Assembly: GCF_040782645.1 (NCBI RefSeq)
Contig: NZ_CP160403.1
Coordinates: forward strand, 1,116,001 to 1,180,000
DNA from: Streptomyces sp. HUAS ZL42
Lineage (GTDB): Bacteria; Actinomycetota; Actinomycetes; Streptomycetales; Streptomycetaceae
DNA: 64,000 bases
Direction: 5' to 3'
Shown: positions 25,479 through 55,100 of the stretch, one piece after another
Numbering within the stretch: position 1 is the stretch's first letter
How the letters are laid out: each line of letters opens with the position of its first letter
Position numbers and translations under genes: made by a program
The notes under the pieces: model-generated
What the model was told of the DNA's origin: nothing
What the model saw: the letters and a program-made list of their open reading frames with translations, nothing else
The model's database searches: none

Positions 25479-25937
25479 ATGAGCACAGTGAAGGAATCGG
25501 TCGAGGTCGAGGTCCCGGTCCGCACCGCATACAACCAGTGGACCCAGTTCGAGGAGTTCCCGAGCTTCATGGAGGGCGTCGAGCAGGTGTCACAGCTCGA
25601 CGACGTCCACAACCACTGGACCACCAAGATCGGCGGTGTACGGCGGGAGTTCGACACCGAAATCGTCGACCAGCTCCCGGACGAGAGGATCACCTGGCGC
25701 ACGATCAGCGGCGACACCCAGCAGAGGGGCATGGTCCGCTTCCAGAGCCTGGACCCCACGCACACCCGCGTGGAGCTCACCATGGACGTCGAACCGAGTG
25801 GGGCGGCGGAGAAGACCGGCGACTGGCTCGGAATGATCGATCGACGGGTCAAGGGTGACATGCGGCGTTTCAAGGAGTTCATCGAGGAGCGCGGCGGCGA
25901 ATCCGGTTCGTGGCGCGGCCGTGTCACTCCGGGATGA
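25479..25937 (+). CDS. SRPBCC-family protein (polyketide cyclase/dehydrase-like)
   Basis: 152 residues, ATG after GAAGG. The START/Bet-v1-like fold is indicated by VKESVEVEVPVRTAYNQWTQ, FEEFPSFMEGVEQVSQLDD, the basic HNHWTTKIGGVRREFDTEIV and ITWRTISGDTQQRGMVRFQ. Stand-alone copies of this subgroup usually accompany stress genes and bind an unknown hydrophobic ligand. It lies 71 bases after the FAD-Rieske gene on the same strand, and may be cotranscribed. Confidence 0.88.
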   Translation: MSTVKESVEVEVPVRTAYNQWTQFEEFPSFMEGVEQVSQLDDVHNHWTTKIGGVRREFDTEIVDQLPDERITWRTISGDTQQRGMVRFQSLDPTHTRVELTMDVEPSGAAEKTGDWLGMIDRRVKGDMRRFKEFIEERGGESGSWRGRVTPG

Positions 25938-26316
25938 GAACGCCTTCTCCCGCCGGCAGCCGTCCGGCGGTCCGGTCGTTCACGTCGGCCAGTGGCCGCG
26001 CCATCGCGTGGTCACTGGCCTGCCGCATGCCGGGCGCCGCGGTCGAGTCAGCCTTCCACGCCGGCGGCGTCATGGGCCGCCCCCTCCGCCGACGACATCC
26101 GCACCCTGCTCACAGAGGCCCTCCACGGCACCCTCGCTCCCCCTGATCGAACGTGAACGCTCCGGGGCCACACCAAGGGCTCCGGATCGTCCGATGCCGC
26201 CCGGGCATCCCGAGTCGCTCCTCCCCCTTCCCTCACCGCCCGGGTGCGAGGCAAGGTGCTCGTGGCGCATTCTTGCTGTGTCGCCCACTCGGCGGCGCAC
26301 GGACGAGGTAAGGCCG
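25938..26316. other. Intergenic stretch without a supported gene
   Basis: About 380 bases between the SRPBCC gene and the first SpoIIE phosphatase. Several frames are open but none has a Streptomyces-like codon pattern together with a ribosome binding site. It probably contains the phosphatase promoter; I could not place it. Confidence 0.5.
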
Positions 26317-28827
26317 ATGACTGGGAGCGCCAGGGGCGAGAACGGGACGCCCGGGCGGCTGGCCCCGCTGCTGACCGAGGCCGTGGCAACGGCGATCAGC
26401 GCAGCCGGCGGCCACTCCGGGGGCGTCTACCTGCGCTCGAGCACGCCAGGACTGCTGCGGCTCGGCGTACTCGCCGGGCTGCCCGGGTCCCTGTTCCGGC
26501 CCTGGTGGCGCGTGCACGTCGACCGCCGCTATCCGGTTGCCGACACCTACCGCCTGGGTGTTCAGGTGGTTCTGCCGAACGGCACGGAGACCATGCGCCG
26601 CTACCCCCAGCTCGCGGCCGGGCTGCCCTATCCGTTCGGGTCCCTCTATGTGCCCATCACGCACGCGGGCACGACCTACGGCGTCCTGACCGTGCTGCGC
26701 CCGGCCGTCCCGGACGTCGCCGAGGTGCTGGTCGAGCGCGACCGCACCGTGCAGGTGGCCGAGCGCCTGGGCGCGGCGCTGCGCCGACTCGAGTCCGGCG
26801 GACCGCCCGTCACCTGGGACGACGAGCCGCTGTGCGTGCGCTCGCCGGCCACGAGCGGCTCCGCCGCCGCTCGCGTGGCGGGATTCTCCTGGGACCCGGC
26901 GACCGGAGAGTTCATGGCCGATGAGGTCCTGCCCGCCCTGCTGGGCCTGCCGCCCGGCCGCACGCTCACCTGCGTGGAGGAGCTCGCCGACGCCGTCACC
27001 CCCGACGTACTGCACCTGCTGCGGCAGACGGCCGGCGGAAAGCCGCCCTCCCTGCCGCTGCATGTGCGTGCGGCCGACGGTGCGCTGCGGCTGATGCAGT
27101 TGTGGGGGCCGCGGGTCCCGCCCGGTTCACCGTCCGGCGCCCATGCGGTCGGCGGAGTCGTCCTCGAACCGGGCCCGGGTGCGGCGGCGGACGCGGCGGC
27201 CGACCTGCTTCCGGACGCCGTGTTCGGCCTGGACCGGCTGGGAACGATCGTCTACGCCAATGAACGGGCGGCCCAGGTGCTGCGCCGGCCACCCGGCGAG
27301 CTCCTCGGCCGGGCGCTGTGGGACGGCGTGCCGTGGCTGAACCAGCCCGCCTGCGAGGAGTACCTGCGCGCGGCGCTGCTGGCGCCCACGCCCGTGCACT
27401 TCCACGTGCGACGGCCGCCGCACGCCGCACAGCACGAGCCCGACCCGCGGTCCCCCGACGGCGACTGGCTGGCCGTGTCGGTGTATCCCGGCCCCGACAT
27501 CCTGTCCTGCACCGTCCGCACCTCCGACCGCGTGTCCGACGCCGGTTCACCTCCCACGCACGACTCCGAGGCCGTGCGGACCGCGGACGCCCTGACGGCG
27601 CCGGTGTACCGGCCCATCGCCCTCGCCATCGCCCTCACCGAGGCCGTCACCGCACGGCAGGTCTCCGCCGTGGTCATGCAGGAGCTGCTGCCGGCCTTCG
27701 GCGGCCGCCGGCTCGCCATCTACCTGCTGCAGGAGCGGCATCTGTATCTGGCGTGGGACACCGGCTTCCCCGAGGGGTTCCTCACTCCCTTCGAGGGGGT
27801 GGGGCTGGACGCGCACCTGCCCGGCGTCGAGACGCTCACCACCGGACGCCCGATGTTCTTCGACTCGATGCAGGAGCTGCGCACCGCCTATCCCGGCATC
27901 CCGCTGGACGCCGAGGAGGGAGCCCGTGCCTTCCTGCCGCTGATCGCCTCCGGGCGCCCGGTCGGCTCCTGCATCCTCGGCTTCGACCGGCCCCGCAGTT
28001 TCAGCCCCCGGGAGCGCTCCGTGCTGACCGCGCTGGCCGGGCTGATCGCCCACGCGATGGAGAAGGCGCAGCGCTACGACACCGAGGCCGCCCTGGCCCG
28101 CGGACTGCAGCAGGCCCTGCTCCCGCGGCGCCTGTCGACGCATCCGCGGGTCGAGACCGCCGGCCGGTACCTGCCGGGCACCCAGGGCATGGACGTCGGC
28201 GGGGACTGGTACGACGTCGTCGAAAGCGGGAACGGGCTGGCGCTGGTCATCGGCGACGTCCAGGGGCACGGGGTGCAGGCGGCCGCGACGATGGGTCAAC
28301 TACGCAGTGCCGTACGGGCGTTCGCGGTCGGTGACCATACGCCGGAGGAAGTCATGAGGGGCACCAACCACCTCCTCATCGACCTGGACCCCGGCCAGTT
28401 CGCCAGCTGCTGCTACGTACGCCTGGATCCCGTGACCGGCCTGGCCAGGGCCGCCCGCGCGGGACACCTGCCGCCCCTGCTGCGCGATCCGGACGGCCAC
28501 ACCCACCTCGTGGACATCCCCGGCGGCATGGTGCTCGGCGTGGACCCGCAGGCCCAGTACCCGATGACCGAACTGCGTCTGGAGCCCGGCGCCATCCTGG
28601 CCCTCTACACCGACGGCCTCGTCGAGCGCCCCGGCGGCGACATCGACGACGGCATCACGGCGCTGCGCGTGGCCCTCTCGAAGGTCGGTGCCCGCGACGA
28701 CCGCGCCGCAGGCCGCTCCCTGGCGGGCGTCGCCGACCGGCTCACCGCGACGGCACGACACACTGCCGACCGCCCGGACGACATCGCGCTCCTTCTGGCG
28801 ACCCGTCGTCCCGGGCCTGAGAGTTGA
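26317..28827 (+). CDS. SpoIIE-type PP2C phosphatase with GAF and PAS sensor domains
   Basis: 836 residues from MTGSARGENGTPGRLAPLLT (AGGTAAGG upstream); the frame is open further up but has no better start. Layout: N-terminal GAF-like domain (~15-160), a PAS domain near 290-350 (LLPDAVFGLDRLGTIVYANE), a second GAF domain near 430-580 (SAVVMQELLPAFGGRRLAIY), then SpoIIE/PP2C from ~590: LARGLQQALLPRRL, DVGGDWYDVVESGNGLALVI, GDVQGHGVQAAATMGQLRSA, ALYTDGLVERPGGDIDDGI. It should dephosphorylate a STAS anti-sigma antagonist in response to a cytosolic signal. No membrane segment. Confidence 0.9.
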   Translation: MTGSARGENGTPGRLAPLLTEAVATAISAAGGHSGGVYLRSSTPGLLRLGVLAGLPGSLFRPWWRVHVDRRYPVADTYRLGVQVVLPNGTETMRRYPQLAAGLPYPFGSLYVPITHAGTTYGVLTVLRPAVPDVAEVLVERDRTVQVAERLGAALRRLESGGPPVTWDDEPLCVRSPATSGSAAARVAGFSWDPATGEFMADEVLPALLGLPPGRTLTCVEELADAVTPDVLHLLRQTAGGKPPSLPLHVRAADGALRLMQLWGPRVPPGSPSGAHAVGGVVLEPGPGAAADAAADLLPDAVFGLDRLGTIVYANERAAQVLRRPPGELLGRALWDGVPWLNQPACEEYLRAALLAPTPVHFHVRRPPHAAQHEPDPRSPDGDWLAVSVYPGPDILSCTVRTSDRVSDAGSPPTHDSEAVRTADALTAPVYRPIALAIALTEAVTARQVSAVVMQELLPAFGGRRLAIYLLQERHLYLAWDTGFPEGFLTPFEGVGLDAHLPGVETLTTGRPMFFDSMQELRTAYPGIPLDAEEGARAFLPLIASGRPVGSCILGFDRPRSFSPRERSVLTALAGLIAHAMEKAQRYDTEAALARGLQQALLPRRLSTHPRVETAGRYLPGTQGMDVGGDWYDVVESGNGLALVIGDVQGHGVQAAATMGQLRSAVRAFAVGDHTPEEVMRGTNHLLIDLDPGQFASCCYVRLDPVTGLARAARAGHLPPLLRDPDGHTHLVDIPGGMVLGVDPQAQYPMTELRLEPGAILALYTDGLVERPGGDIDDGITALRVALSKVGARDDRAAGRSLAGVADRLTATARHTADRPDDIALLLATRRPGPES

Positions 28828-28922
28828 AGGGTGAACTGACCGGGCCCTTGTGAGCGGAAGCATCCCTGTCACCGTGTGTGACGCCCCTCGCCTCCTGGGT
28901 CCCGGCAGTGTAGACATGGCTC

Positions 28923-31643
28923 ATGGTCCGCCTATCGGGTCGACCCGAGTTCCGGTCACCCCGTTCTCGCCGCGGTCTGCGCACCCCGCGCACACCGGAC
29001 CGCGCCCGCAAGGCTCTCGCCGGGCGCAGCGTCGCCGGACAGGTGTTCGTCCTGCAGGTGGTCATCGTGCTGCTGCTGGTCGTCGCCGCGGCGGTGGCGC
29101 TGCTGCTGCAGGTGCGGCACGACACCGACCGGGAGGCCCGCAACCGTTCGCTCGCCGTCGCCGAGACGTTCGCCAACGCCCCCGGCACCCGCGAGGCGTT
29201 GAGCAGTCCCGACCCGACGGCCGTGCTGCAACCGCGGGCGGAGGCGGCCCGCAAGACGTCGGAGGTCGACTTCATCGTCGTCATGAACACCGACGGGATC
29301 CGCTACACCCACCCCAAACCCGACCGCATCGGAAAGAAGTTCGTCGGGGACATCGGGCCCGCCCTGGCCGGCGAGAGCACGACGGAGGAGATCACGGGGA
29401 CCATCGGGCGGCTGGTGCAGGCCGTGGTACCGATCAAGGATCCGGACGGCAAGGTCGTGGGCCTGGTGTCGGCCGGGATCACGACGGCACACGTGGGCGG
29501 GGCCGCGGACCAGCAGCTGCCCGTCGTGCTGTTCGCGGCGGCCGTGGGACTCGCCCTGGCCACCGCGGGGACGGCGCTGGTGAGCAGACGGCTGCTGCGC
29601 CAGACCCACGGCCTGGGCCCGGGCGAGATGACGCGGATGTACGAACACCACGACGCGGTGCTGCACTCCGTACGGGAAGGAGTGATCATCGTCGGCGACG
29701 AGGGCGACCTGCTCCTCGCCAACGACGAGGCACGCCGCCTGCTCCACCTGCCCGAGGACGCCGAGCGGCGGCAGGTGCTCGACCTCGGCCTCGACCCGGG
29801 CACCGCCGAGCTGCTCGCCTCGGGGCGCGTGGTCACCGACGAGGTTCACCTGGTGGGTGGCCGGCTGCTGGCCGTCAACCAGCGGCCCACCCATTTGAAG
29901 GGCGGCCCTGACGGCAGCGTCGCCACGCTCCGCGACTCCACCGAGCTGCGGGCCCTGTCCGGCCGGGCGGAGGCGGCACGGGAGCGCCTCAGCATGCTCT
30001 ACGACGCGGGCTCGGGCGTCGGAACCAGCCTGGACGTGACCCGCACCGCCGAGGAACTGACCGAGCTGGCCGTTCCCCGGTTCGCGGACTTCGCCACCGT
30101 GGACCTCTTCGACGCCGTCCTCGCCGGTGAGGAGCCGGACGGGGCGACCGATCTGCGGCGCACCGCGTTCAGCGGCATCCGCAAGGACGCGCCCCTGTAC
30201 GGGGTGGGCGAGCGGATCCGGTTCGTCGCGTCCTCCCCGCAGGCCCGCAGCCTCCGCACCGGTGAGGCCGTCGTGGAGCCACGCCTGAGCGAGGCCTCCG
30301 GCTGGCTCGCCCAGGACCGGGAGCGCACCGAGCAGGTGGTGGCGTACGGCATCCATTCCCTCATCGCGGTGCCGCTGCAGGCAGGGGCACTGGTGCTGGG
30401 TGTGGTCAGCTTCTGGCGCTGCGCGAAGGAGGAGCCCTTCGACACCGAGGAGGTCGCCCTCGCGGAGGAGCTGGCGGCCCGGGCGGCGGTCTCCATCGAC
30501 AACGCGCGGCGCTACACGCGCGAGCACAGCATGGCGGTGACGTTGCAGCGCAGTCTGCTGCCGCGCAGCCTGCCCGAGCAGAGCGCGCTGGACCTCGCGT
30601 ACCGGTACCTGCCGGCGCAGGCCGGCGTCGGCGGGGACTGGTTCGACGTCCTGCCGCTCTCCGGCGCACGGGTGGCGCTGGTCGTGGGGGACGTCGTCGG
30701 GCACGGGCTGCACGCAGCGGCCACCATGGGGCGCCTGCGGACGGCGGTGCACAACTTCTCCGCGCTGGACCTGGCGCCCGACGAACTCCTCGCGCTCCTC
30801 GACGAACTCGTCTCCCGGATAGACCAGGACGAGCGGACCGAGGGCGGCAGCGCGCCCATCACGGGCGCCACCTGCCTGTACGCGGTCTACGACCCCGTGT
30901 CCCGGCGCTGCACCCTGGCCCGCGCGGGACACCCGCCGCCGGCCCTGGTCGGGGCCGACGGCGGCGTCGCGTTCCTCGAAGTGCCGGCCGGTCCGCCGCT
31001 GGGTGTGGGAGGCCTTCCCTTCGAGACGGCGGACCTGCAGCTCGACGAGGGCAGCAGGCTGGTCCTCTACACGGACGGGCTCGTGGAGGACCGCGACCGG
31101 GACATCGACACCGGGCTCGAACTGCTGGGTTCCGCCCTGGCCAGGTCGGGCCGGTCGCCCGAGGACACCTGCCGGGTCGTACTCGACGCGCTGCTTCCCG
31201 CCCGGCCGACCGACGACGTCGCCCTGATCGTCGCCCGCACCCGGGCGCTGGGCGCCGACCGGGTCGCCGAGTGGCAGGTACCGATGGACCCGGCTGCCGT
31301 GAAGACCGTGCGGGACTCGGTCAACGGGAAGCTGGCGGAGTGGGGCCTGGACGAGCTGGTCTTCGCCACCGAGCTGATCCTGAGTGAACTGGTCACCAAC
31401 GCGATCCGGTACGGCGGGAGCCCCGTGCACGTCCGGGTCATGCGTGACCACAGCCTGATCTGCGAGGTCTTCGACAGCAGCAGCACCTCACCGCACCTGC
31501 GGCACGCGGCCATGACCGACGAGGGCGGGCGCGGCCTGTTCCTCGTGGCCCAGCTCGCCGAACGCTGGGGCACCCGCTACACATCCACCGGCAAGATCAT
31601 CTGGGCCGAGCAGCCGCTGCCCCGACCGCAGTCGGCTCTATAA
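28923..31643 (+). CDS. Membrane sensor SpoIIE phosphatase with C-terminal HATPase (anti-sigma kinase) domain
   Basis: 906 residues. A basic N-terminus and a membrane helix (VFVLQVVIVLLLVVAAAVAL) precede an extracellular single-Cache-like sensor (~65-195, with DFIVVMNTDGIRYTHPKPDR as in DcuS/CitA), a second helix, PAS (~240-330), GAF (~357-520), SpoIIE phosphatase (~545-765: GVGGDWFDVLPLSGARVALV, GDVVGHGLHAAATMGRLRTA) and a GHKL/HATPase domain (~780-900: ELILSELVTNAIRYGGSPVH). Phosphatase and kinase of a partner switch thus lie in one chain, coupled to an extracellular ligand. Confidence 0.92.
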   Translation: MVRLSGRPEFRSPRSRRGLRTPRTPDRARKALAGRSVAGQVFVLQVVIVLLLVVAAAVALLLQVRHDTDREARNRSLAVAETFANAPGTREALSSPDPTAVLQPRAEAARKTSEVDFIVVMNTDGIRYTHPKPDRIGKKFVGDIGPALAGESTTEEITGTIGRLVQAVVPIKDPDGKVVGLVSAGITTAHVGGAADQQLPVVLFAAAVGLALATAGTALVSRRLLRQTHGLGPGEMTRMYEHHDAVLHSVREGVIIVGDEGDLLLANDEARRLLHLPEDAERRQVLDLGLDPGTAELLASGRVVTDEVHLVGGRLLAVNQRPTHLKGGPDGSVATLRDSTELRALSGRAEAARERLSMLYDAGSGVGTSLDVTRTAEELTELAVPRFADFATVDLFDAVLAGEEPDGATDLRRTAFSGIRKDAPLYGVGERIRFVASSPQARSLRTGEAVVEPRLSEASGWLAQDRERTEQVVAYGIHSLIAVPLQAGALVLGVVSFWRCAKEEPFDTEEVALAEELAARAAVSIDNARRYTREHSMAVTLQRSLLPRSLPEQSALDLAYRYLPAQAGVGGDWFDVLPLSGARVALVVGDVVGHGLHAAATMGRLRTAVHNFSALDLAPDELLALLDELVSRIDQDERTEGGSAPITGATCLYAVYDPVSRRCTLARAGHPPPALVGADGGVAFLEVPAGPPLGVGGLPFETADLQLDEGSRLVLYTDGLVEDRDRDIDTGLELLGSALARSGRSPEDTCRVVLDALLPARPTDDVALIVARTRALGADRVAEWQVPMDPAAVKTVRDSVNGKLAEWGLDELVFATELILSELVTNAIRYGGSPVHVRVMRDHSLICEVFDSSSTSPHLRHAAMTDEGGRGLFLVAQLAERWGTRYTSTGKIIWAEQPLPRPQSAL

Positions 31644-37199: not shown

Positions 37200-39080
37200 C
37201 TACGCCGCGACGGTCGCGCGCTCGCGTGCGGACCGTACGGCCGCCGTGAGGCCCGCGATGTCGTACGCGCCGTGATGCCTGCGGCCGTTGACGAAGAACG
37301 TGGGCGTTCCCGCCACACCGCCGAGGTCCGCCGACTCGACGTCCTCGGCGACCCGCGCCGCACCCGCATGGGCACGCATGTCCCGCTCGAAGCGCGCGGT
37401 GTCCAGCCCGATCCGCTCCGCATACCCGCGCAGGTGCTCGAAGCGCAGGGCGCCCTGGTGGCTGAGCAGCAGATCGTGCATGTCCCAGTACCGCCCCTGG
37501 AGAGCGGCCACCTCCGCGGCCTCCGCGGCGAGCTGGGCGTGGACGTGGACGTCGGACAGGGGCAGATGCCGCCACACGTAGCGCACGTCCCCGAAGTCCT
37601 GGAGCAGTTCGCGGACGACCGGCTCCGCCTGCCCGCAGTAGGGGCACTCGTAGTCGCCGTACTCGACGACCGTGACCGGCGCGTGCCGCGGGCCGCGGAT
37701 GTGGTCCCGGTCGGGGTCGACGGGCACCGCGAGGTCGACGATCGTCTCCGCCTTGCCGACCAGTGCCCGAAGCCGTCTGCGGTGCGGCAGCACACCGATG
37801 ACCGCGGTGACGAGCCTGCTGAGCACGAAGGAGCAGAGCACCGCGCTCAGGATGCCGGTCTTGGCGTCCTCGAGCCGCGTGCCGTCGAAGGCGAGCGTCG
37901 CGATGAGCAGCGAGACCGTGAAGCCGACTCCGGCCAGCGTTCCTCCCGCGGCGACCGCTCCCCAGCCGATCGGAGGCCGGGCCGCGCCGCGGGACAGGAC
38001 GGTGGCAAGCGCGGACGCCCCGAGGATGCCGAGCGGCTTGCCTGCGACGTATCCGATGAGGATGCCCAGCGTGACGGGTGAGGTGAAGGCCCTGGCGAGC
38101 TGGTCCCCGCTGATCTCGACACCCGCGTTGGCCAGGGCGAAGAGTGGTACCACGGCGTAGCTGGTCCAGGGGTGGAACATGCGCTGCAGGCGGTCGTTCG
38201 GGGAGATGGCCGAGGCTAGACCGGCTCGGACGGAACGTTCCAGTTCGGGTGTCGGCTGCTCGCGGAACCGGCGGAACAGGCCGCTGGCGCGTTCCAGGTC
38301 GCTGCGGGCCGCCGGGTAGGCGTACGTCAGCAGTCCCATGGCGAGGCCGATGACGACGGGGTCCACCCCCGATTCGAGCAGAGCCACCCAGGCGGCGAGC
38401 GCAAGCAGCGCGTACACGACGCCCCGCTGCACCTCGAGCCGCCGGGCCAGCAGGATGACGACGAAGACGCCGACGGCGAGGAGGAGTGCCGGAACGGAGA
38501 TGCGCTCGCTGTAGGCGACCGCGATCACGCCGAGCGCCAGGAAGTCGTCGACGACCGTGATCGTGAGGATGAAGACCCGCAGTCCGGCGGGCATCCGGCG
38601 TCCCACGACCGCCAGCATGCCCAGGGCGAAGGCGGTGTCGGTGGACATCGCCGCGCCCCAGCCCTGCGTCGCGCCGCGACCGGCGTTGATCCCGAGGTAG
38701 ATGCCGATCGGCACGAGCATGCCGGCCAGGCCCGCGGCGAGCGGCAGGGCCAGCCGTCTGCGCTCGCGCAGCTCGCCCATGTCGAACTCACGCCGTGCCT
38801 CCAGGCCGACGACGAAGAAGAACAGCGTCATCAGCCCGCTGTTGATCCACTCCCGCAGGTCGAGCGACAGACCGTGCGAGCCAAAGCGCACGGACAGGTG
38901 GGTGTGCCAGAACGACTCGTACGCCGAGGGCGCCGCGTTCGCCCAGACGAGTGCGGCGAGCGCCGCCGTCACGAGGACGGCGGCGCTTCCGGTCTCGGTG
39001 CGCAGGAAGTCGCGCAGCGGGGAGTGCGAGTCGCCCCCGCACGCGGTCTGCCCTGTGTAGTCGGTGGCCTCTGGGGACAT
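37200..39080 (-). CDS. nhaA: Na+/H+ antiporter NhaA fused to a DsbA-like thioredoxin domain
   Basis: 626 residues from [20 protein letters not shown]; starts at 39101, 39113 or 39137 are possible and no good ribosome binding site decides. Residues ~25-420 are NhaA with ~12 helices: [20 protein letters not shown], the ion-site pair of aspartates in [36 protein letters not shown] and [19 protein letters not shown]. Residues ~450-620 form a DsbA-type domain with the active site [20 protein letters not shown] and the cis-Pro loop [13 protein letters not shown]. The fusion is known in actinobacteria; orientation predicts a cytosolic thiol domain, which is odd for a DsbA. Confidence 0.92.
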
Positions 39081-39277
39081 GCCTGGCCCAACACCATCCA
39101 TCCGACGTGTCATTCCTTGAAGCAGAGTGCCGGTCAACCCGTGGACGGCCGATCCACCCCACGAACAACCGGGTCACCGGGCTGCTCCGGCGGGTTGTCG
39201 CACCCCCGCTTGATCGAGTACCACCTGCGGCGACGATACTGGAACTCGCACGCCGTTCCCGTCCCACAGATGGACCC

Positions 39278-40429: not shown

Positions 40430-40833
40430 ACGCGCCGCGTCAGCGGAAGAGGGGCAGGCGGTCCGCGACCGCTGTCCGGGGCTGTCGCAGGCGCCCGCAG
40501 CGTCTGGCGGGCGGCTCGTCGGGCACCGATGGGCCTGGGCATGGCGCTGACCGAGGGCAGCACGATGGACGCCGCGTTCGGCGACTTCACGGAGTCCGAC
40601 CTGGCCGGCTGTCACATGCCCGCGCACGCCTGGTCGGCCACCGGATCCGCCCCGTGCCGTGAATGCGCACCCTGGGGTGCCGTGCCATTCGAGTGAGGCA
40701 GGAGGGTGAGGACGACTCACCGGTGCGGGTGACCGGCGCGACTGCCGGTTTACCCCGAGGTAATACGGGCGCGAGAACCGGGAATCCAGAAAGTGGGTCC
40801 GCATTCTGCGGTCCCCACCCCGGAGGAGGACCC
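40430..40833. other. Intergenic region holding a gene remnant
   Basis: About 400 bases. Apart from the molybdo-hydroxylase fragment at 40529-40630 I see no gene. The last ~100 bases carry the ribosome binding site GGAGGAGG of the YkvA-like gene. Confidence 0.55.
40529..40630 (+). pseudogene. Remnant of a xanthine dehydrogenase/CO dehydrogenase-type molybdopterin subunit
   Basis: In one frame from 40529 the sequence reads MGLGMALTEGSTMDAAFGDF then TESDLAGCHMPAHA. This follows the C-terminal signature of XdhA/CoxL subunits ('mGiGmAL.Ee...D..fG.f.n.DLAeYh.PvHAD'). Neither the preceding ~700 residues nor the following conserved block is present; the frame then runs into unrelated sequence and stops at 40694. 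I read it as a ~34-codon relic of a deleted gene. Confidence 0.5.
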
Positions 40834-41139
40834 GTGGACACGACCACTGCAGTGATCACCGTCGCCGTGGTCCTCGCCGCGGCCGCTCTCGCAGCGGCCG
40901 TGGCCCTGCTGGTGCGACTGGTGCGCACCCGGCGCGGGTTGCGGCGGGCCGGGCTTCCCACCGGACCGCGCTGGGTCTTCTGGGGCGCCGTCCTCTACTT
41001 CGTGCTGCCGGCCGATCTGCTGCCCGACCCCGTGTACCTCGACGACATCGGTGTGATCCTGCTCGCACTGCGCACGATGCGCGGCCCGGCCGACGAGCGC
41101 AGGAGCAGAGCCGTCGACCGGCCGGGCGACCCCGCCTGA
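40834..41139 (+). CDS. YkvA/DUF1232 membrane protein
   Basis: 101 residues from GTG 40834 after GGAGGAGG. One N-terminal membrane helix (VITVAVVLAAAALAAAVALL) is followed by the DUF1232 core WVFWGAVLYFVLPADLLPDP and VYLDDIGVILLALRTM, where 'PxDLlPD...lDDigvl..A' is diagnostic. Small integral membrane protein of unknown function. Confidence 0.87.
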   Translation: MDTTTAVITVAVVLAAAALAAAVALLVRLVRTRRGLRRAGLPTGPRWVFWGAVLYFVLPADLLPDPVYLDDIGVILLALRTMRGPADERRSRAVDRPGDPA

Positions 41140-41333
41140 CAGCGACTCAACCCCCTCGCGCCCTCGCCCGTCTCAGGTTCGGGGTGCCCGAACTCGCCGC
41201 CGATTACGGAGCGTAAGGAAACCAATCACCCGTTCGATTCGTATAAGTAAATGGAAGCCCAAGAGTTCCGAGGGCGGAAGCGACGACGCGGCATGCCAGG
41301 GCTTGGTCGGCGCAGCACCACGAGGGAGAGACG
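41140..41333. promoter_or_regulatory. Upstream region of the graspetide genes
   Basis: 194 bases, AT-richer near 41185-41260. A TATAAG hexamer at 41242-41247 is a possible -10 element; no good -35 match is visible, so an alternative sigma factor or an activator is possible. This would give a ~85-base leader before tgmA. Confidence 0.3.
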
Positions 41334-41525
41334 ATGCAACCGTTCGCGCTCAACTACGCACGCCCGGCGGCGGAGTTGGAGGTTATCACTCCGTACGCCT
41401 ATGACTCCGGACTGCAGTTGAACGTGCTTCTGGACGGGCGGATAGCCGCCTCGGACCTTGCCCTGCTCAGAGAACTCGGGACCACGACCTCGACCGCGGG
41501 CTCGAAGACTCACTTCGACGACTGA
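41334..41525 (+). CDS. tgmA: ATP-grasp-modified RiPP (graspetide) precursor peptide
   Basis: 63 residues, ATG after GAGGGAGAGACG. The leader MQPFALNYARPAAELE with PYAYDSGLQLNVLLDG is the conserved recognition part of actinobacterial graspetide precursors (TgmA, GRASP_targ family). The C-terminal core, after LGTTTSTAG, ends SKTHFDD. Thr/Ser/Lys donors and the terminal aspartates are the expected partners of side-chain ester or amide crosslinks installed by the ATP-grasp ligase encoded next. The ring pattern cannot be read from sequence. The ligase starts 17 bases downstream. Confidence 0.9.
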   Translation: MQPFALNYARPAAELEVITPYAYDSGLQLNVLLDGRIAASDLALLRELGTTTSTAGSKTHFDD

Positions 41526-41542
41526 ACGCGGAACCGACGACA

Positions 41543-42526
41543 ATGACCGTTCTGATCCTGACCTGTGAACAGGATGTGACGGCGGACATGGTGGTCGTGC
41601 ACCTCAACGCGTCCGGAGTGCCTGTGGTCCGGCTCGACCCGGCCGACCTGACCGGCGGGGTGGCCCTCTCGGGCGAGTACGTACACGGCGCCTTCCGCGG
41701 CCATCTGTGGTCGGCGGGCCGTCTGGTGAGCATCAACGGCCTGCGGTCCGTCTGGGTGCGCAGGCCGGGCACGCCGGCCACACGGGTCGCCGAGCCGTCC
41801 GAGTGGCTCACCGAGGAGTCCTCCCAGGCCCTCTACGGGATGCTGCGCAGCTCCGACGCGCGCTGGATGAACCACCCCGACGCGGCGCGCCGGGCCCGGC
41901 ACAAGCCCTGGCAGCTCCGCCTCGCCCAGCGCAGCGGACTGCCCGTGCCGGCCACTGTGATCACGAGCTTCCCGCAGGCAGCCCGGGACTTCGCCGAGCG
42001 CTTCCCCGACCTGGTGGTCAAACCCGTCTCCGGCGCCCACCCGCAGGAACCTCCCCGGGCGGTGCCGACCAGCCGCGTCGCGCCGGACACGGACTTCACC
42101 GCCGTGGCGTTCGGTCCCACGCTGCTGCAGCGGCGGATCGCCAAGCGGGCCGACATCCGTCTGACCGTCGTGGGCGACCGGATGCTCGCCGCCCGCAAGG
42201 AGACCGCACCGGACGCGGACCCCGACGAGGTCGACGTCCGCTTCGCCTCGTCGGCGCTGCCGTGGCGGCCCGTCGAGGTCCCGCCCCGCATCGCCGAGGG
42301 CGTCCGCACCTACCTACGGGACGCGGAACTGGCGTACGGCGCCTTCGACTTCGCCGAGGACGCCGACGGGACCTGGTGGTTCCTGGAGTGCAACCAGTCG
42401 GGACAGTTCGGCTTCGTGGAGGTGGAGACGGGGCAGCCGATCGCCCGGACCATCGCGGAGTGGCTGACCGACCCCTCCCCGCGGCGGCAGACGGGGTGCG
42501 ACGGCCGGAGGACGACGGTGCACTGA
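41543..42526 (+). CDS. tgmB: ATP-grasp ribosomal peptide maturase
   Basis: 327 residues: a pre-ATP-grasp domain (MTVLILTCEQDVTADMVVVH, GLRSVWVRRPGTPATRV), then the ATP-grasp fold with ARRARHKPWQLRLAQRSGLP, DLVVKPVSGAHPQEPP, LLQRRIAKRADIRLTVVGDR and the metal/ATP region YGAFDFAEDADGTWWFLECN followed by QSGQFGFVEVETG. It matches the SAV_5884-type graspetide ligases that activate Asp/Glu side chains as acyl phosphates and couple them to Thr/Ser/Lys. It follows the precursor gene. No methyltransferase, protease or transporter gene adjoins, so the cluster is minimal. Confidence 0.92.
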   Translation: MTVLILTCEQDVTADMVVVHLNASGVPVVRLDPADLTGGVALSGEYVHGAFRGHLWSAGRLVSINGLRSVWVRRPGTPATRVAEPSEWLTEESSQALYGMLRSSDARWMNHPDAARRARHKPWQLRLAQRSGLPVPATVITSFPQAARDFAERFPDLVVKPVSGAHPQEPPRAVPTSRVAPDTDFTAVAFGPTLLQRRIAKRADIRLTVVGDRMLAARKETAPDADPDEVDVRFASSALPWRPVEVPPRIAEGVRTYLRDAELAYGAFDFAEDADGTWWFLECNQSGQFGFVEVETGQPIARTIAEWLTDPSPRRQTGCDGRRTTVH

Positions 42527-42586: not shown

Positions 42587-42640
42587 ATGATCACGCTTTC
42601 GACTCAGCACCGGATGATGCCCCGCCGACGGGGCTGCTGA
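42587..42640 (+). CDS. 17-codon leader peptide upstream of metG
   Basis: Reads MITLSTQHRMMPRRRGC then stop. It has two adjacent Met codons followed by a Pro-Arg-Arg-Arg-Gly-Cys ending whose DNA forms a 6-bp hairpin (gccccg/cggggc, 42619-42624 with 42629-42634). A second hairpin follows at 42661-42683, before the metG ribosome binding site. The layout is that of a translated attenuator leader: ribosome position on the Met, Arg or Cys codons could decide folding. Sized like other Streptomyces leader peptides; not experimentally known to me. Confidence 0.5.
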   Translation: MITLSTQHRMMPRRRGC

Positions 42641-42660
42641 GTACGGACGCATATCGAATC

Positions 42661-42683
42661 CGAGGCCCCGGGACGGGGCCTCG
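42661..42683 (+). promoter_or_regulatory. Attenuator-like hairpin before metG
   Basis: 9-bp stem cgaggcccc / ggggcctcg with a 5-base loop, 20 bases after the mini-ORF stop and 42 before the metG start. It could be a conditional terminator. It has no U-run, so a translational effect is also possible. Confidence 0.5.
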
Positions 42684-42725
42684 ACGCATGTGCGGACCGG
42701 GTCCCGCCGCCCGGTGGGAGGACCC

Positions 42726-44264
42726 ATGACCGCACGACGCCACTACATCACCACGACCATTCCGTACGTCAACGCGCGCCCGCACCTTGGCTTCGCCCTG
42801 GAACTCGTCCAGGCGGACGTGCTGGCGCGCCACCACCGCCATCGGGGCGATCACGTCCGGCTGGTGACCGGCACCGACGACAACTCCCTCAAGAACGTCC
42901 TGGCCGCCGAGGCCGAGGGCATCGACGTACGGACGCTGGTCGAGCGCAACGCCGACGCGTTCGCCGCGCTGCACGAGCCACTGGCGCTGTCCCCCGACGA
43001 CTTCATCCGCACCAGCAGCGATCCCCGCCACCGGGTCGGCGTGGAACGGCTGTGGCACCGGTGCGCTGCCGCGGGCGACCTGTATCGCAAGCAGTACGAG
43101 GGTCTGTACTGCGTCGGCTGCGAGCAGTTCTGCACCCCGGACGAACTGGCCGGGGGGCGCTGTCCCGAGCACGGCACCGAGCCACAGCACGTGGCGGAGG
43201 AGAACTGGTTCTTCCGCCTGTCCCGCTACGCCGACCGTCTCCATGAGCTGATCACGAGCGGCGCCCTGCGCATCGAGCCCGCCGCCCGCCGCAACGAGGT
43301 GCTCGCCCTCGTCGCCGCGGGCCTGCACGACTTCTCCGTCTCCCGCTCGCACCATCGCGCCCGCGGCTGGGGCATCCCGGTGCCGGGCGACCCCGATCAG
43401 GTCGTCTACGTGTGGTGGGACGCGCTGGGCAACTACGTCACCAGCCTGGGCTACGGCACCGACGATCCCGCGTACGAGGAGTGGTGGGGGTCCGGCGAAC
43501 GCCGCGTCCACCTCGTCGGCAAGGGGGTGGTCCGCTTCCACGCCGTGTACTGGCCCGCCATGCTGCTGTCGGCCGGACTGCCGCTGCCCACCGACATCCT
43601 GGTCCACGACTACCTCACCGTCGAAGGCCGCAAGATCAGCAAGTCAGGCCCGACGACCGTCGACCCGGTCGAGCTGGCCGCCGAGTACGGCACCGACGCA
43701 GTGCGCTGGTGGCTCCTGCGGGACGTCCCCCGCGTCGGGGACGCCGACTTCACCCGCGAGCGGCTGACGGCCCGCGCCGACGCTGACTTCGCGGGAGGAC
43801 TGGGCAACCTCGTGCACCGGGTGGTGACGATGGTCCACCGTTACCGGGACGGGGTGATCCCCTCCCCCGCCGACGGCGATCCCACCGACGGCGACGCGGC
43901 CGTGACGGCGCTGCTGGAGGAGTGCCGGTCGGCACCCGGCCGGATCGACGCCGCCCTCGCGGACTTCGACTTCCGCCCCGCCCTGCGCGCCGTCTGGGGC
44001 ATCGTCGAGCAGGCCAACCGCTGTATCGACGCCACCCGCCCGTGGGAACTGGCGCGGGCGGAACGGCGAGGCAACACGGCGGCGGCCGACCGTCTCGACG
44101 CGGTCCTCGCCGCCCTGATCACGGCATGCCGCGAACTGGCCGAGGAACTGCGCCCGTTCGTCCCAGGAGCGGCCGCCCGGATCCGTGCACAGGTGACCGC
44201 CGGGGAGGGAGGTGTGCTGCCACTGTCGTCCCCGCTCTTCCCCCGCCTGGCGGACCGCTCCTGA
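42726..44264 (+). CDS. metG: Methionine--tRNA ligase (probable second copy)
   Basis: 512 residues, ATG after GGGAGGACC. HIGH-like motif in YVNARPHLGFALELVQADVL, a connective-peptide zinc knuckle of CxxC...CxxH type (YCVGCEQFCTPDELAGGRCP, then EHG), WWDALGNYVTSLGYG, KMSKS-like VEGRKISKSGPTTVDPVELA, then the anticodon-binding helical domain ending without the C-terminal dimerisation extension. It charges tRNA-Met. Its position beside a RiPP cluster, not among housekeeping genes, and its private leader suggest an extra, perhaps resistant, isoform. That the genome has another metG is assumed, not seen. Confidence 0.93.
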   Translation: MTARRHYITTTIPYVNARPHLGFALELVQADVLARHHRHRGDHVRLVTGTDDNSLKNVLAAEAEGIDVRTLVERNADAFAALHEPLALSPDDFIRTSSDPRHRVGVERLWHRCAAAGDLYRKQYEGLYCVGCEQFCTPDELAGGRCPEHGTEPQHVAEENWFFRLSRYADRLHELITSGALRIEPAARRNEVLALVAAGLHDFSVSRSHHRARGWGIPVPGDPDQVVYVWWDALGNYVTSLGYGTDDPAYEEWWGSGERRVHLVGKGVVRFHAVYWPAMLLSAGLPLPTDILVHDYLTVEGRKISKSGPTTVDPVELAAEYGTDAVRWWLLRDVPRVGDADFTRERLTARADADFAGGLGNLVHRVVTMVHRYRDGVIPSPADGDPTDGDAAVTALLEECRSAPGRIDAALADFDFRPALRAVWGIVEQANRCIDATRPWELARAERRGNTAAADRLDAVLAALITACRELAEELRPFVPGAAARIRAQVTAGEGGVLPLSSPLFPRLADRS

Positions 44265-48477: not shown

Positions 48478-49398
48478 ATGTCCACCGCGTCGCCTCGCAT
48501 CTCCCGGCTCGAGTCCTATCTCGACCGGCCCGAGCCCGCGCCGACTCTGCTGAAGATGCTGGTCGGCGTGCAGTTGGCGGGGTTCCGTGAGGATGCCGGC
48601 CTGTCCCAGGACCAGGCTGCGCGAACGCTCGGATTCAGCGGGGCGAAGCTCTCCCGCATCGAGTCGGGAAAGGGCCGCAGGCCCCCGGCGGAGCGCGATG
48701 TCCGGGCCCTGCTGGAGCTGTACGGCACCGAGGACTACGAGGCGTCGGTGCTGCTGAAGCTCCTGCAGCGGGCCGGCGAGCCGGGCTGGTGGCAGCGCTA
48801 CGACAAGCGGCTCATGCCCGAGTGGTTCGACCGGCTGGTGGGACTGCAGGAGGCGGCCGCCACCATCCGTACCTTCGAGATCCAGTACGTGCCCGGGCTG
48901 TTGCAGACCGCCGCCTACACGCGGGCGGTGGTGGAGCGGGGCCTGCCCAACGCGCCGGCCAACGAGGTGCAGCGCCGCGTCGAACTGCGCACGCGCCGGG
49001 CGCAGTTGCTGGACCGGACGGACGCGCCGCAGCTGTGGGCCATCGTCGACGAATCAGTCCTGCTGCGTGTTCTCGGCGGCAAGGACGTCATGCGCGAGCA
49101 GCTCGGGCGTCTCGTGGAGATGGCCAGGCGTCCCCATGTGACCGTGCAGATCGTGCCCCTGGACGTGACGAACGCCTCGGCGCCCGCCATTCCGGTCACC
49201 TATCTCCGCTTCGGCGGTCAGGACCTGCCCGACGTCGTCTACCTCGAGCACATCAGGAGCGCCAACTTCCTCGAGGACCGTGACGAGACCGAGGAGTACC
49301 GGCTCGCCCTGGACAGGCTGGCCGACGAGGCGCTCAACCCGCGCGAGTCCCTGAGCCTGCTGCGCGAGACGATGGAGGCACGCTACCCCGCGCCGTGA
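48478..49398 (+). CDS. XRE-family regulator with DUF5753 domain
   Basis: 306 residues. N-terminal helix-turn-helix (QLAGFREDAGLSQDQAARTL, FSGAKLSRIESGKGRRPPAE) followed by the ~190-residue DUF5753 domain with YVPGLLQTAAYTRAVVERGL, WAIVDESVLLRVLGGKDVMR, EQLGRLVEMARRPHVTVQIV and VYLEHIRSANFLEDRDETEE. This is a WhiJ-type regulator, normally acting with a DUF397 partner such as the one just upstream to control development or antibiotic genes. Convergent with the methyltransferase gene, 3 bases apart. Confidence 0.94.
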   Translation: MSTASPRISRLESYLDRPEPAPTLLKMLVGVQLAGFREDAGLSQDQAARTLGFSGAKLSRIESGKGRRPPAERDVRALLELYGTEDYEASVLLKLLQRAGEPGWWQRYDKRLMPEWFDRLVGLQEAAATIRTFEIQYVPGLLQTAAYTRAVVERGLPNAPANEVQRRVELRTRRAQLLDRTDAPQLWAIVDESVLLRVLGGKDVMREQLGRLVEMARRPHVTVQIVPLDVTNASAPAIPVTYLRFGGQDLPDVVYLEHIRSANFLEDRDETEEYRLALDRLADEALNPRESLSLLRETMEARYPAP

Positions 49399-49401
49399 CC
49401 G

Positions 49402-50220
49402 TTACGGGAGGCGGCCCACTCCGCCGAACTCGATCCACTCCTGCGTGAGCTGACGGGGCGCCACCTCACTGTCCGGTCGCCAGGTGGACACCTCCACGAG
49501 TCCCGGTTCGAGGATGTCGACGCCCTCGAACAGTGCGGCGACGTCCTTCTCCTGGCGCACACGCCCCCAGTGCCCCTGCGTCACCTGGTCCATGAAGTTC
49601 GTGACGAAGTCACGCACCTCGGCGTCCTCGCTCACGAGCTGGCACATCACCAGATAACTGCCGGGCGCGAGCCGCTCCGTGACCCGGCGCACCACAGCCT
49701 GCGGTCCGTCGGTCTCGCTGTCCGGAATGCAGTGGAAGACGGAGTTGAACAGCACGGCGACCGGCTGGGAGAAGTCGATCAGACGCTGGGTGTCGGGGTG
49801 GGAGAAGATGGCTTCCGTCTCCCGCATGTCCGCGTGGATGACGGTGGTGCGCTCGTCCTGCTCCAGCAGCGCCCGGCCGTGCACGAGCACCATCGGGTCG
49901 TTGTCCACGTAGACGACGTGCGCGGTGGGGTCGATGCCCTGGGCGACCTGGTGCACGTTGTCCTGGGTGGGCAGGCCGGAGCCGTGGTCGAGGAACTGCC
50001 GGATTCCGTACTCCTGTGTCAGGGTCCTGACGACCCTTTGCAGGAAGCGCCGGTTGTTCACGGCCAGACGGCGCGTGCTCGGAACGACCTTGTCGAGTTC
50101 CTCGCATGCCGCACGGTCGGCCGCGTAGTTGTCCTTGCCGCCCAGATAATGGTCGTACATGCGCGCCGCCGTCGGCACGTTGGCGTCGATCTTCGTGGAC
50201 AGCTGCTTCTCCGAGTGCAT
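49402..50220 (-). CDS. S-adenosyl-methionine methyltransferase (Methyltransf_19/DUF574)
   Basis: 272 residues from MHSEKQLSTKIDANVPTAAR, with GGGGGAG upstream. The family signature is ARMYDHYLGGKDNYAADRAA and IRQFLDHGSGLPTQDNVHQV; the SAM loop continues with VVYVDNDPMVLVHGRALLEQ. These soluble Streptomyces methyltransferases are very common next to DUF397/XRE genes; substrate unknown. Convergent with the XRE gene. Confidence 0.92.
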   Translation of the reverse strand: MHSEKQLSTKIDANVPTAARMYDHYLGGKDNYAADRAACEELDKVVPSTRRLAVNNRRFLQRVVRTLTQEYGIRQFLDHGSGLPTQDNVHQVAQGIDPTAHVVYVDNDPMVLVHGRALLEQDERTTVIHADMRETEAIFSHPDTQRLIDFSQPVAVLFNSVFHCIPDSETDGPQAVVRRVTERLAPGSYLVMCQLVSEDAEVRDFVTNFMDQVTQGHWGRVRQEKDVAALFEGVDILEPGLVEVSTWRPDSEVAPRQLTQEWIEFGGVGRLP

Positions 50221-50332
50221 CGCTCCCCCAGCTCCGTGCCGCGCCAACTCGGCTGGCATGAAAGAGATTACATCCTGGGAACTCGATGTTGTCCCGTTCC
50301 GGAGGATGAGCGGCACAGAACCGGAAGAGGAC

Positions 50333-52861: not shown

Positions 52862-53752
52862 TCATTGCCGGGCACGGAAGTTGATGCGTTCCCGTACGAC
52901 GGGGAAGCCGGCCCGGGTGAAGTGCGCCGCCATGGGGAAGTTGCCCTGGTCGGTGGCTCCGGAGACGAACTGTGCTCCCTGCTCGACGAGGAAGTGCGTG
53001 CACTCGGCCAGGAGGTCGTAGGCGTAGCCGTGCCCGCGCTGGTCCGGCAGTACGCCGACGAAGCCGACGCACGGGCCCGAGGGATTGTGCGCCGGAATGT
53101 GGATCCCCGCCAGGTCGCCCTGTGGTGTCCGCGCCACCTGCCACCACTCCCGCGGTGACGGGAGCCAGTGGAAAAAGTCGAGTTCCTCCTGGGCGGCCCG
53201 GTCGACTCCGCCCTCCTCGATGGCCTTCAGCGCGTGGACGTCCAGGGTGACGGAGTGGATGCGGCGCAGTGCGTCGCGGAACACCGTGTCGTCGGGTTCG
53301 GGGGCGAACACCAGGCGGCCCGGCCGCTCGGGCAGCCCGCACTCCGGTGTCCAGCGGTACAGGAAGCGCTCCACCAGGAGTTCGTAGCCGACCGCCTTGG
53401 CTGCGGTGAAGCGTGCTTCCGCGGCGGTGCGCAGGGACGCTTCCGTGCGCCAGCCGCCGGGCAGGTTCAGCTCCAGGTCGACACGCCAGGGGGCACTGCG
53501 CAGGAGTTCGGCTCCCGCCTCCTCCTCTCCCTCGGCCACGTCGAACCAGTTGACAACGACCGGCTCGGTGTCGTCCGGGCCGCCCCACCAGGCGGCGCGG
53601 GCGACGACCCGTCCGTCGCGCAGGGCCACGCGCTTCCACTCGGGGCGGAACCGGGTCAGCCGGTGCGCCTCACGGGCGCCCAGCGGGTCGGGCAGGGTGT
53701 CGAAGACAGGGGCGTCGAGCTCGTCGAGCGCGCGGATGACCAGGTCGGTCAT
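52862..53752 (-). CDS. GNAT-family N-acetyltransferase
   Basis: 296 residues from MTDLVIRALDELDAPVFDTL. Two GNAT-like halves: the N-terminal part has EWKRVALRDGRVVARAAWWG, and the functional C-terminal half has GPCVGFVGVLPDQRGHGYAY (acetyl-CoA loop), AYDLLAECTHFLVEQGAQFV, then GATDQGNFPMAAHFTRAGFP. Tandem GNAT proteins of this type acetylate small amines; substrate unknown. Divergent from the third PP2C phosphatase. Confidence 0.88.
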   Translation of the reverse strand: MTDLVIRALDELDAPVFDTLPDPLGAREAHRLTRFRPEWKRVALRDGRVVARAAWWGGPDDTEPVVVNWFDVAEGEEEAGAELLRSAPWRVDLELNLPGGWRTEASLRTAAEARFTAAKAVGYELLVERFLYRWTPECGLPERPGRLVFAPEPDDTVFRDALRRIHSVTLDVHALKAIEEGGVDRAAQEELDFFHWLPSPREWWQVARTPQGDLAGIHIPAHNPSGPCVGFVGVLPDQRGHGYAYDLLAECTHFLVEQGAQFVSGATDQGNFPMAAHFTRAGFPVVRERINFRARQ

Positions 53753-53984
53753 GGGATTCCTCCGGAATGCGTACTGCGTGGAGCGCTCCCGGGTCGGATC
53801 AGACGAGGCACGCCGGGGCAACGGAGAGGGAGCGCTGGATGGGTGTGCGGTGCACGGCACTCGCCTCCTTCCGTCGGTCTCGGGGCGTGGTGTCACACGG
53901 TACGGATGCCCGCGCCGACGCGTCCACGGGTTTTCCGGCCGGGCTCGGCATGCGGGACGGGCCGGTGAGGAGGAGCGTGGTGCT

Positions 53985-55100
53985 GTGGGAAGAGTGCGCG
54001 CCCTGTCACCGCGCCGGGAACGCGACCGGGACCGGCGGGGGTGGCTGCGGGGCGCGCCTCCGCCACCCTGGGTCAGAGTGCTGCCGATCGTCCTGATCGT
54101 GGGCATCGGCGTGGCCACGCTGCTCAGCCACGACCCGCTCGACATCGGCTTCCTGCTGGGCGCCGTCCCGCCGCTGGCAGTCCTGTCGTACGGGCCGTTG
54201 GGGACCGGGCTCCTCGGCGGCGCCGCGGTCGCCCTGTTCAACATCCCGGCCTTCCAGCTGGACCGACCCGGCAACACGGACCTGCTGACGATCTGCTTCG
54301 TCGCCATGCTGAGCGTGTTCGTGTCGTTCGTACGCCGTCGGCGGGACGTTCAGCTGGACACCGAGCGCACCATCGCCGAGGCCGCCCAGCGCGCCATCGT
54401 GCCACCGCTGGCCGAGCGGGTGGGGCCGGTGCGCTGCGCGGGACTGTACCGGGCCGCAGAGCGCGGGACGCTCGTCGGCGGCGACTTCTTCGACGTGCGC
54501 GACGGGCCCCACGGCGTACGGGCGGTCATGGGCGACGTACAGGGGCACGGGCTGGCGGCGGTCGCCACGGTCGCCTCGCTGCTGGGGGCGTTCCGGGAGG
54601 CGGTGCTCGACGCGCCGGACCTGGAGTCGGTCGCCGGCCGGCTCGACCGGCGGCTCGTCGTGGACGCGGCACAGGTGCGGCACGCGGAGCTGTTCGCGAC
54701 GGCCGTGCTGCTGGAGTTCTCCCGGGACGGCGCTGCCGTACGGCTCGTGGCCTGCGGCCATCCGCCACCGCTGCTGCTGCGCGAGGGAAAGGTCACGGAG
54801 CTCGGGATCGAGCCGTGGCCTCCCCTCGGTCTCGGCCTCGCCGACGCCGCCGCGTACGAAGGGTGCACGGTCTCGCTGCAGCCCGGCGAGCGTCTGTTCC
54901 TGGCCTCCGACGGCGTCTGGGAGGCCCGGGACGCAATGGGTGCCTTCTACCCCCTGACCGACCGCCTGGCCGACCTCGCCGACGAGGACCTGACGGTGAC
55001 GGCGGAGCGGGTCTGGGCGGACCTCGTGCGGCACTGCGGGACCGCACGCGACGACGTCACGATGCTCGTTCTCGCACCCGCGAACCCGCTGAGCCGTTGA
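53985..55100 (+). CDS. Membrane SpoIIE-type PP2C phosphatase
   Basis: 371 residues from GTG 53985 (GAGGAGGAG ~11 bases upstream); GTG 53994 is an alternative. Three short membrane helices at the start ([56 protein letters not shown]) form a sensor-less anchor; the phosphatase follows with [56 protein letters not shown] and [20 protein letters not shown]. This short architecture is very common in Streptomyces. Its last 44 bases overlap the convergent MMPL gene. Confidence 0.9.

Follow-up and report, generated by a model that had tools for sequence, protein, structure and literature searches.

Prunipeptin is a bicyclic peptide from Streptomyces prunicolor, by the title of Unno and Kodani 2021 (cited in PMC13097080), and its cluster, in which the precursor gene pruA and the ligase gene pruB lie side by side, is entered in MIBiG as BGC0002725 (PMC11888242). 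The ligases of graspetides act through acyl phosphates (PMC13097080). The group 13 graspimiditides, such as fuscimiditide and amycolimiditide, are likewise actinobacterial, use an ATP-grasp ligase and carry Thr-to-Asp ester rings (PMC13001092, PMC12291112), while the compact core of the microviridins, 14 residues long, is closed by two esters and one amide and plesiocin is built on tandem repeated core motifs (PMC12291112). We analysed a stretch of 64,000 nucleotides from Streptomyces sp. HUAS ZL42 (contig NZ_CP160403.1, positions 1,116,001 to 1,180,000, forward strand; hereafter the window), in which a short precursor gene is followed by the gene of an ATP-grasp ligase. This pair is very probably the prunipeptin biosynthetic operon, the product of which is already known, and the cluster itself would then be one more host for prunipeptin.

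Profile scans indicated that PF14404 'Strep_pep', which goes back to families of precursors that were recognised in 2009 (PMC8939145), covers the whole precursor. The 63-residue protein is also matched by TIGR04186, carries a PF..NYA.P motif in its leader and ends in a single tail, GTTTSTAGSKTHFDD, with SKTHFDD at the C-terminus, which distinguishes it from the repeated motifs of plesiocin. The ligase open reading frame (ORF) starts after a gap of 17 nt and is matched by TIGR04187 (GRASP_SAV_5884) with 397 bits (4.2e-119, cut-off 350). Because of these family matches the two predicted frames are not regarded as chance ORFs, in agreement with the initial annotation of this DNA, which had placed a 63-residue precursor beside a SAV_5884-type ligase as a two-gene cluster (exact coordinates in Table 1).

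The window ligase matched PruB of Streptomyces coelicolor (PDB 9BOU) with 566 bits (1.9e-169; 78% identity in the structural alignment) and is 84% identical to a ligase of S. prunicolor, while its identity to the microviridin ligases MdnB and MdnC (PDB 5IG8, 5IG9) is 28% and 26%, and to the plesiocin ligase PsnB (PDB 7DRM-7DRP) 21-22%. Graspetide macrocyclases were the best fold matches of the ligase model; further matches to RimK, LysX and glutathione synthetase were set aside as reflecting the shared ATP-grasp fold only. Residues D204, R206, E282 and N284 were invariant among 25 ligase sequences and presumably serve in core recognition and metal binding, as in other graspetide ligases.

A single PF14404 precursor was found in the genome of S. 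prunicolor NBRC 13075, and all 15 residues of its tail are as in the window; the two systems differ at some positions of the leader and middle region. The initial annotation had taken both product and role to be open. As to the product this view does not hold, given the PruB-related ligase, the published prunipeptin and the identical tail, and the core does coincide with that of a solved graspetide, as far as the S. prunicolor genome precursor stands for PruA. As to the role it was upheld: no description of the biological role, the leader protease or the exporter of the prunipeptin system was found in the literature searched, a search on PF14404 and its synonyms found no described product of that family, and a search on words of the tail sequence returned only unrelated papers, judged by title. 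Four points weigh against the identification with prunipeptin. The tail was compared with the S. prunicolor genome precursor and not with the published PruA letters or ring pairs; S. prunicolor has three TIGR04187 ligases, and the assignment to PruB rests on the name given to 9BOU, from the S. coelicolor relative; the ligase model is moderate (mean predicted local distance difference test score, pLDDT, 75.1), the sequence match being independent of it; and the window pair is known here from genes alone.

Alignment of 26 precursors revealed that T51, S53, A55, G56, S57, T59, H60, F61, D62 and D63 are invariant, and that every invariant Thr or Ser after Met1, together with both C-terminal acceptors, falls within the tail. 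Candidate donors in the tail are Thr50, Thr51, Thr52, Ser53, Thr54, Ser57, Lys58 and Thr59, while Asp62 and Asp63 are its only side-chain acceptors, and the presence of two acceptors fits the published 'bicyclic'. Donors and acceptors are thereby nearly invariant, position 58 being K in 17 precursors, Q in five and A in four; the single sequence with K54 carries A58, and the tail is without lysine in 8 of the 26. Prunipeptin is reportedly closed by one ester and one isopeptide bond, the latter of which would use Lys58. The tail was identical over 15 residues in 129 of 142 precursors among the matches listed, a count made on the best-listed rows of two word-based searches (231 and 596 matches) and biased toward close relatives. 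The K54/A58 placement of lysine was seen in L047 (genome G030) and, beyond the aligned set, in L066 (G242) and L067 (G536).

We propose that one transcript from the conserved upstream promoter would give rise to both precursor and ligase. The ligase would bind the leader and use ATP to phosphorylate Asp62 and Asp63 on their side-chain carboxylates; Thr, Ser or Lys side chains within residues 50-59 would then attack, yielding two side-chain rings by two dehydrations (-36 Da), and an unlinked protease would presumably cut off the leader. The action of the promoter, the closure of rings in this strain and the matching of each donor to an acceptor are inferred.

Table 1. Features of the precursor-ligase locus; positions are those of the window, except for the paralogous pairs, which are given in genome coordinates.
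Feature	Position	Strand	Basis or remark
Graspetide precursor, PruA-like, 63 aa, ATG	41334..41525	+	PF14404 1.2e-37; TIGR04186 1.8e-11; alignment
Near-invariant tail, codons 49-63	41478..41522	+	26-sequence alignment; pN/pS 0.018
ATP-grasp graspetide ligase, PruB-like, 327 aa, ATG	41543..42526	+	TIGR04187 match
Upstream element GGAAACCAATCACCCGTTCGATTCGTATAAG, conserved; probably the promoter from which precursor and ligase are transcribed	41217..41247	+	conservation; genome counts
Small DUF1232 protein encoded upstream; common beside the pair in one clade	40834..41139	+	PF06803 2.5e-05 on longer ORF 40663-41139
Paralogous pair (L058, Q58)	3845680-3846794		tail without lysine
Paralogous pair (L056, A58)	5486351-5487466		tail without lysine

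Comparison of 26 loci from 20 genomes showed the precursor-ligase pair in all 26, the start of the ligase ORF following the precursor stop at a distance of 7 to 38 nt, while no third gene family recurs in all of them and the commonest neighbours reach 9/26. The comparison of neighbours relied on a crude ORF caller, some stretches end at a contig end, and the ligase of genome G024 was missed and later recovered. A precursor gene and a ligase gene with nothing further is the usual arrangement, and the absence of the extras, which had been held to be unusual, is not so.

The absence as such was confirmed, since Pfam and TIGR scans of the neighbours detected no isoaspartyl methyltransferase, protease or peptide exporter adjacent to the window pair. 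Further Pfam scans covered 31 selected ORFs, namely 15 of the window between 20 and 55 kb and 16 around two paralogous pairs of the same genome, and neither an isoaspartyl methyltransferase nor an ABC transporter was among them. The closest methyltransferase in the scanned ORFs was a PF04672 enzyme of another family (49402-50316, about 7 kb off), and, some 3.5 kb from the precursor of one paralogue, there is an ORF resembling peptidase S51. The suggestion that a matching methyltransferase might be encoded elsewhere in the genome was not borne out either: the best genome-wide match to TIGR04188 reached 252.9 bits against a cut-off of 380 and lies at 6.18 Mb, unlinked to and distant from each of the three TIGR04187 ligases (1.157, 3.846 and 5.486 Mb), the ORFs around it having been inspected by eye only.

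These results also bear on the idea that the pair is a group 13 graspimiditide cluster that lost its methyltransferase. Group 13 nearly always co-occurs with an isoaspartyl methyltransferase, so that a reduced form is conceivable (PMC13097080). The group 13 systems have, however, both the methyltransferase and a loop Asp that is converted to an aspartimide, and the window system has neither; its tail is without an internal Asp for aspartimide formation, Asp62 and Asp63 being the last two residues, and no third gene stands beside the pair in more than the 9 loci mentioned (the neighbours in other genomes were not individually scanned for methyltransferases). Such a loss is therefore exceedingly improbable, and the prunipeptin assignment is preferred.

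Selection on the precursor was estimated as the ratio of the proportions of nonsynonymous and synonymous differences (pN/pS) in a close set of 81 sequences, namely the window and 80 named loci, from which 1500 pairs were sampled. The ratio was 0.018 for codons 49-63, whereas codons 13-26 gave 0.49 and codons 27-48 gave 0.32 at similar pS (0.38-0.41); the leader start (codons 2-12) was almost equally constrained (0.029), and the 81 tails comprised 53 distinct DNA sequences. In the broader set (24 of the 26 loci) the values were 0.081 for the tail, 0.68 for codons 13-26 and 0.35 for codons 2-12, so that there the tail alone stands out. These ratios indicate strong purifying selection on the tail, which is a modestly new point. 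The far greater variability of residues 13-48 would be compatible with a graspetide other than prunipeptin, of the same family but with a different ring pattern brought about by the differing leader and middle region, all the more as the published ring pairs were not matched letter by letter in the comparison with S. prunicolor. We consider this highly unlikely, however, as the tail agrees with the one from S. prunicolor in all 15 residues, the ligases share 84% of their residues, and it is within the tail that every invariant Thr or Ser beyond Met1 is found, as are the two C-terminal acceptors.

Upstream of the precursor gene a 31-bp sequence, GGAAACCAnnCnnnCGTTCGATTCGTnTAAG, was first spotted by eye and fits exactly in 74 of the 80 named loci. 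Mean column identity in the 81 sequences was 97% over 41217-41248, whereas 31-bp stretches taken from the upstream region had a median of 75%. When up to two mismatches were allowed, 28 of 101 Streptomyces genomes contained exactly one site and 73 none (reversed-pattern control, 0), and comparison of coordinates placed all 28 sites 29-100 bp before a PF14404 start. The window genome has one site at up to three mismatches, and a looser pattern added one at 9.75 Mb. PF14404 occurs over the cut-off in 47 of the 101 genomes, 19 of which are without the element at the stringency of two mismatches; it therefore belongs to one clade, and copies of the other clade have a different upstream sequence. 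That such an element occurs once per genome in these 28 is likewise modestly new. It is probably the promoter of the precursor-ligase operon, a function with which its varying spacing from the start codon agrees, and it may be of the extracytoplasmic function (ECF) sigma type (GGAAAC-N17-CGTATA). A weaker dyad, TAC-N5-GTA, was noticed just upstream of the element, the two lying within window 41201-41247.

The presence of this highly conserved promoter-like element, together with the intact state of both window frames and the strong purifying selection on the tail of the family, argues against a decayed or silent remnant that makes no product. Knowledge of the pair from genes alone would be compatible with a remnant, and one relative, L092 (genome G109, contig 75), has its leader and tail in different reading frames, either through decay of the precursor or through a sequencing error; for the window pair we nevertheless regard this as very unlikely, and an operon for prunipeptin remains the preferred reading.

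Besides the window pair at 1.157 Mb, the genome carries two more precursor-ligase pairs, at 3.846 Mb and 5.487 Mb, whereas the S. prunicolor genome yielded one PF14404 copy. The paralogue precursors end in GTTTSTAGSQTHFDD and GTTTSTAGSATHFDD; the paralogue ligases share 85% identity with one another and 56-58% with the window ligase. Three copies in one genome, two of them without a tail lysine, are a further modestly new point; if prunipeptin has an isopeptide bond, the lysine-free copies cannot form it via a tail lysine.

Of 295 Streptomyces genomes, 161 contained PF14404 above the cut-off and 164 at E <= 0.001, counts which may include a few chance matches of the kind of L036 and L037, and in a class-wide sample of 296 genomes from 114 genera the family was present in 19, all of them Streptomyces. 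L036 and L037 are weak matches at residues 30-57 inside frames of 676 and 709 aa, one by reading a Ser/Thr kinase-like protein and the other apparently non-coding, and were dropped as chance. The possible significance is biological: a bicyclic-peptide system whose tail hardly varies, and which has a promoter-like element of its own, is present in 161 of the 295 genomes. A fixed tail would favour a conserved target or role over the diversification expected of a weapon. Since the tail scarcely changes within the genus and the operon of one clade is preceded by a probable promoter that has no second copy in the genome, we tentatively suggest, as a possibility rather than an expectation, that peptides of the prunipeptin family are endogenous to Streptomyces, acting for instance as an internal or developmental signal, and are not a weapon, and that this strain might make three versions, the two lysine-free ones closing their rings by a chemistry other than that of the lysine-bearing one, with esters only.

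Among the neighbouring genes, that of the DUF1232 protein was considered as a constant third part and rejected, as it occurs in 79 of the 80 close named loci but in only 9 of the 26 broader loci. DUF1232 is present in 73 of 101 Streptomyces genomes, including ones without PF14404 (e.g. G005, G008, G010), and also at unlinked sites (e.g. G103, G115); it may have a role within one clade. XRE-DUF5753-type genes have been reported near graspetide groups 11 and 13 (PMC13097080); the one at 48478 of the window was attributed to background, relatives at E <= 1e-8 being found in 2 of 26 stretches of up to 18 kb each.

Further upstream lie a 492-aa ORF without family and, about 2 kb off, an NhaA Na+/H+ antiporter gene; the ORF at 37200-39137 fuses NhaA with a DsbA/thioredoxin-like domain. 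On its 3' side the ligase gene is followed by genes for a methionyl-tRNA synthetase and an AlkZ-like protein. The synthetase gene directly follows the ligase gene in one of the 26 loci, that of the window itself, and in none of the 80 named loci (3-kb flanks), and a 17-codon ATG ORF with two adjacent Met codons was noticed just before it (42587-42640), both within window 42587-44264. Three SpoIIE-type phosphatase genes are located within 30 kb (25855-31643, 53397-55100), two of them with GAF/PAS or Cache sensor domains.
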